Positions 3,079-6,000 of a stretch of 64,000 nt of DNA are shown here, piece after piece. The stretch's first letter is position 1; each line of letters begins with the position of its first letter. The position numbers were made by a program, and so were the translations under genes. The DNA comes from Pagrus major (taxonomy: Eukaryota > Chordata > Actinopteri > Spariformes > Sparidae). The notes beneath the pieces are model-generated. The model did no database searches. It saw only the letters and a program-made list of their open reading frames with translations, and was not told where the DNA came from. The stretch spans positions 18,793,306 through 18,857,305 of the forward strand of contig NC_133215.1 in assembly GCF_040436345.1 (NCBI RefSeq). Direction: 5' to 3'.

Positions 3079-6000
3079 TCAGAGTTTATGAAGACCACTT
3101 TGAAGCTTTTCTGGAGGTGACTCACTTTTCTTTTTAAAAAGATTTTTCAGCTTTAATGATTTCTTGCTCTTTTCCTTATCATGGTTCTTCTCACGGGGCG
3201 ATGCAGGAGATGGGACAGCAATCCTTGGCGGTGGCACGGGGGGCTCCACCTCTGCTAGTAGCCTGCTCTGGGGCAGGTTGGGTGTTGAGACGGAGAGGCT
3301 GGTTGGGGTCGTGGAGTTGCAGGCCTTCTCAAGGATTCCATCATAAACAAGCTGGCTCAACGGGTAAAGGTCTGATGATGACTTCCATGGCCCCTGGGAG
3401 GTTACCATAAGATCTGGCTGTCCAGTTTGACCAGCAGATGAACTTGATTCGGATGCTCCCAGCTCCTCCCTCAGTATTGATTGTTTAGGTATTTCCATTG
3501 GACCATCAACTCTATCCCGAGGGACTTTTCCTGTGAGACTTTCTGTGGAAGTGTCAATATCATCTCTCTGCATTCTTGGTATTCTCCTTCGGAGAGAACC
3601 AGCAGACATCTGAAGTTCATCTTTCAGTGTCATCCTACTTGTAGATGGTTCTAAACTGAACTCTTGCTTCTCTGTAGAGGATGAGGTATCCATAAGTGCT
3701 TCTAATTTCTCTCTGGGTAGCATTATCATGGAAGCAGTATCTGTACCATACTCCAGCTCATCTCTAGATATCTTTCTTTGGGGTGTTCTAGTGTTCCTAG
3801 AACTTGTGTCTAGGGACTTTCCCATTGAATCTCTTGTAATCCTTCTCGATACAGAGTCAAGCGTACGCTCAACATCATCCCGTATCATCTTTCTTGAGAC
3901 ACTGTCCATTGAGGAACCCAATTTATCTCTCGATATCTTCCTAGGTGCCATATCTGTTGTTGCTTCTAACTCATTCCAAATAATCTTCCTCACATCCAGA
4001 GACAAATCACTTCTTTCTCTGTATAAATTCCTTGAAGCAGTTTCCATCAAATCCCCAATTGTATCTCTGTCTACTTTGTCTTTTGCCATCTTCCTGCAGG
4101 AAGCATCTACTGTAGCTTCAAGCTCTTGCACAGATATTTTGCGAACTGGAGATTCAGCAACAGCTTCGACTTCTTTACTCAAAGGCTTTGTAATGGAGCT
4201 GTCTGAACGAAGCTCAGTTTCATCAAGATAGAGTTTTTGAGAGGAAGTGTCAATAGTCGGATTAGGGAAGACTTTGCTGTGAGGAGGTGAGGTCATATAG
4301 TCTGTGTCTGAAAAGATCTCATCAGAGTCTCTATTAGTGAGAGAAAGAAAAGGAAGAATATGAGTAAGAAGGGACAAGGAAGGAAAGCAGGATGGAATCA
4401 AAGAATGAACAACATCTGCTTCAACAAAGGTGTAGCTGAAACACAGTGGTTTAGCATTAAAGCGTGTAAAAATAATTTGTCTGTAAAAATTGTGGGAGAC
4501 ATACTGTTTCTTCAGAGTTTTCAAGAAGTGCCCTTCTTCCTCATCAAAACAAGGATATGGGGATCGGATGGGGATGAGAAGGTCGGGGTCTGGGGAGATC
4601 ATGCCAGCTGGTGGCTGAGTGATGACACCAGGACGACGTGACCGACATATGGTGGACCCCCGTGTTCGAGGAGAGCGCTTCGGTGGTGGAACTGGGACTG
4701 GAGAAAGGCCAAAGATGAACCAAACTGCTCTATCCATACATAACAGACAGTGGTTAAAGCCTAGATGTAGCAATAAATATATGTACTCCTTGTTTATCGA
4801 CCTTAAAGACCATGAAAATATTGAGTTCCAGAAGATTAGTGATGTTGGGACTACTCACAGCTTGTTGGCAAACTACTAAGACTGGCAAGCTAATCACAAA
4901 AACGTTAGCCATCTAGCTAATGCTATTCAGTAAAACCAGATCTTTAACCTTTCTCTATTTTTTCTCTGTTCCTTCAAATGTCCTTTCTTGCTATTGGTCA
5001 ATGGCACAAATCTCAAACATTAGAGTCTACCAAAGCTTAACTCAATGTTAAAATGTGTGCCGATTAACATTGGCCTCGTTGATCATTTGATTCGCTTGAA
5101 CACATTCACTAAATTAGCATATTTCCATATTTTGCATTTCCATAGAGAACATGAAGAGTCACTGAATGGTTTTATCTGAATCACATGCCATGGCCTCCAC
5201 AGTCACCAGATCTGCACCTGATGGAATACTTTGTTAACTGTAATGAAGAATAAAAAATGTCTGCTACCTACCTGGCATCTGTGGTAAGATTGGAGAATCA
5301 GACTCTTCTATCAGATCCTCTATAGATCCATGGAGAGAGCTGTGGTATGAACAAGATGACTGGGGCACTCGGGGCAACCCAACGGAAACTGAGTCTGAGT
5401 AGAGCTGGGCAGTGAGGTTTGCTAGCCCTGGATTCCTAATGATGGGGAAGCCACAGAGGCGCTCAATTTGCTGCCAGCGATGGAGGCGCTCACGTAGACA
5501 GGCTGTTACTTCAGACAAAGAATTCCTTTGTGAGATAAAAAAAAAGACCTTTGTGACATTTGTTGCACATTACACAAAGAAAACTTGCTTTGCTTGCTAT
5601 TTTTTGACTCACTTTGCCTCTAGGATCTTGTGGTCAACTTGGTCTAGAGAGGAGCTGTGGGCGACATGGAGAGTTCCCAGCACAGAACTCCTCTTCTTCT
5701 TAATCCTCTCTGCCTGCAAGAAAGTGTAGGTGCAGGTCAGTTTGCTAAATTCATAATCATGTGTCTAAACATTTCCTTTTTTGCAATTGCTTGCTTATGT
5801 GTCCAGTCACATTAATAAAAATGTTTACAAGTTACATAGGGGATGGTGGTGGTGGTGTGACAGCGAGCGAGATGGCTGCCAAGCGAGAGACTGCTGTTTG
5901 AGACAGCGTTTGTACATTTGAAAGCATGAAACCACTGGATATTTTTAACGAGATGTCTACATATTTTCCAGCCATGTTTGACAGATAATTTACTTTGTGG

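Follow-up and report, generated by a model that had tools for sequence, protein, structure and literature searches.

The 64,000-nucleotide window analysed here (Pagrus major, RefSeq assembly GCF_040436345.1, contig NC_133215.1, positions 18,793,306 to 18,857,305) carries on its minus strand a STIM gene at about 3.1–12.6 kb, its start placed by eye, and the last coding exon of this gene encodes a tandem array of a 16-residue motif. Coding stretches of the gene matched the Pfam families EF-hand_STIM1 (50.6 bits), SAM_2 (27.3 bits) and SOAR (49.1 bits) above their cut-offs; these matches come from stretches of a gene whose exons were located in part only. On the minus strand, as for all features of the gene given below, the EF-hand loop is encoded at 9441..9533 (EF-hand_STIM1, E 2.1e-13), and SOAR in a first stretch at 6181..6342 (Pfam SOAR, E 5.7e-13) and a second at 5612..5713. 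The last coding exon (3079..4330) is an open reading frame (ORF) of one split codon and 416 complete codons, with the stop at 3079–3081. Downstream of the array it encodes a GILEK motif (3325..3339) and a polybasic C-terminal segment (3127..3174), the latter a feature of STIM2, and 522 residues separate the end of the SOAR helix from the polybasic LFKKK. The preceding coding exon (CRSRR...SPDPDLL) lies at 4505..4698, and the 174-base intron between the two (4331–4504; GTATGT...TAATAG) has its donor GTATGT from 4504 and its acceptor ...CACTAATAG ending at 4331, with the frame kept by the split codon CA/A; the splice sites and the split codon were read by eye. This intron has no in-frame stop: a single ORF spans 4854 to 3079, and intron retention would be translatable.

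Comparison of the 265 residues encoded at 3451–4245 with themselves revealed a mean BLOSUM62 score far above background at a lag of 16 residues (z 7.27) and again at a lag of 32 (z 6.28). In 20,000 shuffles the highest z at any lag was 5.42 and none reached the observed value; for the whole last exon the lag z was 5.54, again equalled in 0 of 20,000 shuffles. These lag tests are independent of any choice of units but use the boundaries of an earlier sequence-only reading, which had described an in-frame repeat within one exon of a STIM-like gene at 3451..4245; both the repeat and its periodicity on self-alignment are thus confirmed. The same reading had extended the repeat over the whole interval, and here the result was divided. 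In sliding windows of 120 residues the lag-16 z was 5.3–7.0 for windows starting at exon residues 40–120, 3.3 for the start at 140 and at most 1.8 from 160 on, so that the first part is periodic but the C-terminal third is not. At lags of 48 and 64 residues the protein signal was absent (z −0.18 and +1.17 for the proportion of nonsynonymous differences, pN); inserts presumably explain the missing signal three and four units apart.

The array was laid out as 16 segments of 14–23 residues, mostly 16, at 3436..4239, the end of the last unit being taken from a position-specific scoring matrix (PSSM). This matrix was built from six seed units chosen by eye, each seed was scored leave-one-out, and the thresholds were the maxima of 2,000 shuffles, 7.17 (95%) and 10.05 (99%). 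All six core units exceeded the higher threshold (16.5–27.2 bits), namely those at 4096..4143 (16.5), 3943..3990 (20.1), 3895..3942 (24.3), 3847..3894 (21.5), 3799..3846 (17.1) and 3730..3777 (27.2). Three further units, at 3436..3483, 3679..3726 and 4033..4080, scored 12.65, 10.52 and 7.72, and thus nine units are individually supported, the one at 4033..4080 at the 95% level only. Roughly 12–15 copies of a core RK(I/M)(S/T)RD(E/K)L had been proposed; the array is real, but the remaining seven segments are degenerate, and the core needs correction, with counts of 4 for R[RK]x[ST], 6 for RK[IM] and 9 for R[DE]x[LIVM]. Two irregularities were seen among the units. An out-of-register insert at 3778–3798 reads RNTRTPQ after SS, and a STIM1 gene of the same genome (on the contig called C2 below) has GSTRIPQL; we take the insert to resemble the end-binding (EB) protein-binding context SRNTRIP of STIM1 with Thr in place of Ile, a resemblance probably due to chance. 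In the nine supported units the residues at position 9 are, in order, E,G,E,G,E,G,E,E,G (7 of 8 steps are changes), hinting at paired duplication; a two-unit super-repeat was nevertheless rejected as not significant, 7% of orderings being equal.

Searches of the same genome (786 Mb, 25 contigs) found SOAR matches in at least four places, on the contig with the array-bearing gene (C1) and on three others (C2, C10 and C13). The C10 gene was closest to the array-bearing gene in 4 of the 6 stretches that matched on all three other contigs. Identity to the C10, C2 and C13 counterparts was 73%, 62% and 52% in the coiled-coil, 68%, 50% and 47% in SAM, 69%, 64% and 62% in the first SOAR stretch and 88%, 76% and 82% in the second; the transmembrane stretch (63%, 63% and 52%) and the third SOAR stretch (57%, 57% and 58%, the C10 match covering a longer stretch) did not separate them. 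We take C10 to be a STIM2 gene and C2 and C13 to be STIM1 genes, from their likeness to the human sequences, and by these identities the array-bearing gene is nearer to STIM2 than to STIM1. Fish usually have two STIM1 and two STIM2 genes, according to the excerpts of PMC1904252 and PMC7291033.

The sister STIM2 gene on C10 has a single last exon of about 211 codons with one copy of the motif, TPYRKISREEL. Like the array-bearing gene, it has RKISR[DE]EL, GILEK and a polybasic end (EKIKRSSSKIKSLFKKKK) in its last exon and, by eye, CRSRR and MSPDPDLL in the preceding one; unlike it, it has Ser/Pro-rich sequence where the array stands, and its protein ends at the polybasic segment, whereas 15 residues (3082–3126) follow that segment here. 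Human STIM2 is likewise taken to carry one RKISRDEV motif in the matching place. The sequence-only reading was right that one fish STIM2 has many copies of a motif that is single in another STIM2, and also that its tail is longer: its last exon has 416 complete codons, that of the sister about 211, and human STIM2.2 continues for 159 residues after residue 587 (excerpts of PMC13143212). By eye, the copy whose context (3754–3786, overlapping the unit at 3730–3777) most resembles TPYRKISREEL, the one motif of the sister, has the best claim among the units; it may be the most direct descendant of the ancestral single motif. Expansion in one paralog, rather than loss in the sister, appears the simplest history. 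Searched against its own genome, the array protein retrieved nothing but itself at E ≤ 1 (9 candidates scored; single units are too short to detect), and no relative of the array was confirmed among 170 pattern matches in genome contigs and 25 in viral contigs. The whole last exon matched no Pfam family and, at E up to 1, no PDB chain; the array alone gave only a sub-threshold Pfam match to Peptidase_M78 (E 0.18). An EB-binding motif of the form [ST]x[IL]P was absent from the last three coding exons of the array-bearing gene, which is not decisive for membership in STIM2, and multiplied SxIP motifs were accordingly rejected as the content of the array; the sister last exon has one such motif, SMLP, and human STIM2.2 has two EB sites according to the excerpts of PMC13143212.

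Conservation between units was analysed column by column in 13 segments, after removal of the three (exon residues 100, 218 and 248) that gave no ungapped alignment; the units had been chosen by similarity, which favours conserved columns. Columns 2 (Lys), 3 (hydrophobic), 6 (Asp/Glu), 7, 8 (hydrophobic), 9 (Glu/Gly), 13 (Asp) and 14 (Ser/Thr) were each conserved above all of 5,000 random columns, and columns 1 and 5 (Arg) reached 0.005 and 0.0008, respectively, in the same comparison. The pattern [ILMV]xR[DE]x[LIVM] occurred 9 times against 0.32 in shuffles, and none of 3,000 shuffles had as many. The kept positions are thus Lys2, hydrophobic 3, Arg5, Asp/Glu6, hydrophobic 8, Glu/Gly9, Asp13 and Ser/Thr14, and the conserved pattern is hydrophobic-x-R-[D/E]-x-hydrophobic with a later Asp-[Ser/Thr], a pattern that excludes the acceptor at position 4.

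Analysis of the codons showed that this likeness persists in the protein and is gone from the DNA. Between codons one unit apart, identity at codon positions 1 and 2 was 0.434 and 0.422 against 0.291 and 0.250 elsewhere (z 4.3 and 4.1), whereas at position 3 it was 0.281 against 0.277 at other spacings (z 0.1). At a lag of 16 codons pN was low (0.583, z −3.98) but the proportion of synonymous differences (pS) was not (0.750, z +1.16), and two units apart pN was 0.606 (z −3.35) and pS 0.721. Agreement of fourfold-degenerate third bases was 11 of 60 at a spacing of one unit and 18 of 50 at a spacing of two, compared with 29% at other spacings; where two units have the same amino acid they used the same codon in 76 of 195 places, against 73.3 expected from codon usage, and shuffling of synonymous codons reproduced the similarity of the units in DNA (P 0.25). 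Since recent copying or homogenisation would leave all three codon positions alike, the background level at position 3 means that the copies, and hence the array, are old. The simplest reason for the likeness that remains is that selection has acted on the protein since the units were duplicated, and the codon pattern also argues for translation of the array in its frame. An antisense ORF of 205 amino acids lies opposite the array at 3614–4231 and is probably a by-product of the codon pattern.

A structure model of the array made with AlphaFold from the one sequence was of low confidence and suggests a disordered region; 149 of the 265 residues fell below 50 in predicted local distance difference test (pLDDT) score, and the best ten-residue blocks, which are helical, averaged 72–78. 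The model showed no sign of a folded solenoid, though it is too poor to exclude one. Four of its eight helices start exactly at unit position 5, with one each at positions 4, 6 and 7; the chance of four starts at position 5 is about 0.0003, or about 0.006 when any of the 16 phases is allowed. A hydrophobic staple is a known rule for the start of helices, and the hydrophobic residues at positions 3 and 8, together with the mostly acidic position 6, would fit such a start.

A spacer in which only length counts would account for part of these results. On that explanation the duplications merely extended a disordered linker, and nothing but its length, charge balance and flexibility matters. The 522 residues between the SOAR helix and LFKKK, the last exon of about twice the sister's length, the balance of 48 Lys/Arg and 50 Asp/Glu in the array, the many residues of low pLDDT and a C-terminal third out of register by drift all agree with it. 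A spacer, however, needs no set residue at every sixteenth position, whereas codon positions 1 and 2 are still alike with the third saturated, and eight columns exceed every random column, albeit in units chosen by similarity. A pure spacer therefore explains the length but leaves the residue-specific constraint unaccounted for, and we consider it rather unlikely.

Still less probable, in our judgement, is a multi-site phosphorylation switch in which every unit is a site for a basophilic kinase. The sequence-only reading had proposed such a multiplied R-K-x-S/T site, and R[RK]x[ST] was indeed mildly enriched (4 against 1.13 expected, with 53 of 3,000 shuffles having as many) in an array that is 22% Ser and Thr. 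The acceptor itself lends the proposal no support. Column 4, the presumed phospho-acceptor, was the least conserved of the 16, random columns being as good in 76% of cases for the 13 units and in 51% for the nine supported ones; its residues in the 13 units are Y,L,S,D,I,S,I,T,S,P,L,P,L, with Ser or Thr in only 4. This lack of conservation is the more telling because the choice of units by similarity favours conserved columns. R-x-x-[ST] stood at the shuffle level (6 against 6.55 expected), and [RK]-x-x-[ST] was at or below that level in the array. Arrays of AMPK sites and of CK1 sites were likewise rejected, neither pattern being significantly enriched against 3,000 shuffles; the CK1-like pattern had 14 matches, and 478 shuffles had as many. 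An easy misreading is hereby corrected: it is the obvious acceptor of the kinase consensus that the units have not retained. Ser or Thr is kept in 10 of the 13 units at position 14, and phosphorylation at unit position 14 or 16 is possible.

It is very unlikely that splicing removes some of the array as an intron or that the gene is decaying: although the splice sites were read by eye only, the repeat has a coding-type signature, with codon positions 1 and 2 kept and 3 free, the corresponding exon of the sister is a single exon, and the EF-hand and SOAR matches lie above the Pfam cut-offs. A recent, unstable form of the coding minisatellite that had been suggested, or an assembly artefact, can practically be dismissed in spite of the tandem origin and the unit of about 48 bp, for Tandem Repeats Finder listed no array at the locus, the core units have only 33–60% of their bases in common, their synonymous differences are saturated, and one intact frame runs on to end in the GILEK and polybasic segments.

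We tentatively favour an old tandem expansion in one STIM2 paralog, kept by selection as a multivalent docking array in the linker from SOAR/CAD to the polybasic end. One paralog would have gained tandem copies of the 16-residue motif that is single in the other, and selection would have kept the protein pattern of the units, which may serve as short helix-starting binding motifs in a flexible linker that joins SOAR/CAD, which activates ORAI, to the polybasic tail, which binds the membrane. A cytosolic partner could be bound by avidity where STIM2 gathers at contacts between the endoplasmic reticulum (ER) and the plasma membrane, and the added length would also lengthen the tether. AMPK with its kinase CaMKK2 is a candidate partner, since AMPK binds to the matching region of human STIM2; to name AMPK as the partner of the array is a guess by analogy.

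Work on human STIM2, cited here from excerpts of PMC13143212, provides the background for this docking explanation. The tail past SOAR affects store-operated calcium entry (SOCE), resting activation of NFAT and binding of AMPK, and the responsible residues, beyond the polybasic and EB motifs, are described as unsettled. A variant without the 159 residues beyond 587 showed raised SOCE, fewer resting clusters, no constitutive translocation of NFATc1 and weaker binding of AMPK; the AMPK-interacting region comprises residues 442–746, and residues 588–623 contain eight putative phosphorylation sites (PMC13143212). Judged from sequence, the array lies in the part of the tail that matches this AMPK-binding and SOCE-affecting region.

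Several results weigh against docking of this kind. According to the same excerpts, human STIM2 lacking residues 625–746 has wild-type SOCE and an internal deletion of 588–623 lowers function; these conflicting deletion results mean that restraint on SOCE is not simply assigned to one part of the tail, and the residues of human STIM2 that bind AMPK are not mapped to an RKIS-type motif there (PMC13143212). In the array the AMPK-like substrate pattern is not multiplied, with 2 matches and 356 of 3,000 shuffles having as many. The constraint was deduced from the units of one gene in a single species, and the AlphaFold model is poor, with a mean pLDDT of 52.6 and a predicted template modelling score of 0.18. 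A tblastn search with the whole tail missed the last exon of the sister, its best C10 match (E 1.6) lying elsewhere, and the homology of the two last exons therefore rests on short common motifs and exon order, compared by eye. Finally, windows of 120 residues show no significant periodicity within the C-terminal third, which so rests on single units, and 7 of the 16 segments are degenerate; both are expected if the constraint has been partly relaxed.

A bolder form of the docking explanation, possible but somewhat doubtful, holds that the single motif of STIM2 tails is itself a docking motif and that, after the fish-specific duplication, one paralog became a selected gain-of-valency scaffold with at least nine copies, recruiting a regulator (AMPK/CaMKK2 or another) to ER–plasma membrane contacts in a dose-dependent manner. 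If this were true, the array would expose a functional motif, so far unrecognised, in vertebrate STIM2 tails. The retention of residues points to candidates that may matter, namely hydrophobic 3, Arg5, Asp6, hydrophobic 8, Asp13 and Ser/Thr14, and the two paralogs offer a natural comparison of many copies with one copy inside one animal.

Among known systems, human STIM2.2 has the same EF-hand, SAM, SOAR/CAD and polybasic end but only 159 residues beyond 587 (PMC13143212, in part), whereas the fish gene has 416 codons in its last exon and at least nine copies of the motif. Alternative tail variants such as STIM1L and STIM2.3 also make the C-terminal tail a site of isoform-specific change that tunes SOCE; they are, however, produced by alternative splicing (excerpts of PMC6471419 and PMC13143212). 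The zinc finger of Piccolo was amplified within the gene in teleosts, mice having two copies of the element (PMC3484663, in part), but the element multiplied there was a zinc-finger domain, whereas in STIM2 it is a short motif in what is probably a disordered tail. Fish proteins are thus already known to undergo amplification within a gene, as the Piccolo excerpts show (PMC3484663), and the STIM2 motif array appears to be a new example. Among the titles listed in the open-access literature none describes such an array in a STIM2 tail, and the available parts of PMC7503814, PMC7291033 and PMC6471419, from the literature on stim2a and stim2b in zebrafish, mention no tail repeat.

Elsewhere in the window, RBPJ-like coding stretches lie upstream of the STIM2 gene on the same strand (16674–20070; TIG_SUH, E 8e-14; LAG1-DNAbind, E 3.9e-10); RBPJ, we presume, adjoins STIM2 in human too. 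A TFIIE-beta-like stretch at 36948–37232 matched TFIIE_beta (25.9 bits) and TFA2_Winged_2 (24.5 bits), both slightly under the cut-off. The stretch at 56499–56813 matched no Pfam family with an E of 0.01 or less and encodes a peptide with VDDMQLYV, which we take to recall the reverse transcriptase of a long interspersed nuclear element (LINE).

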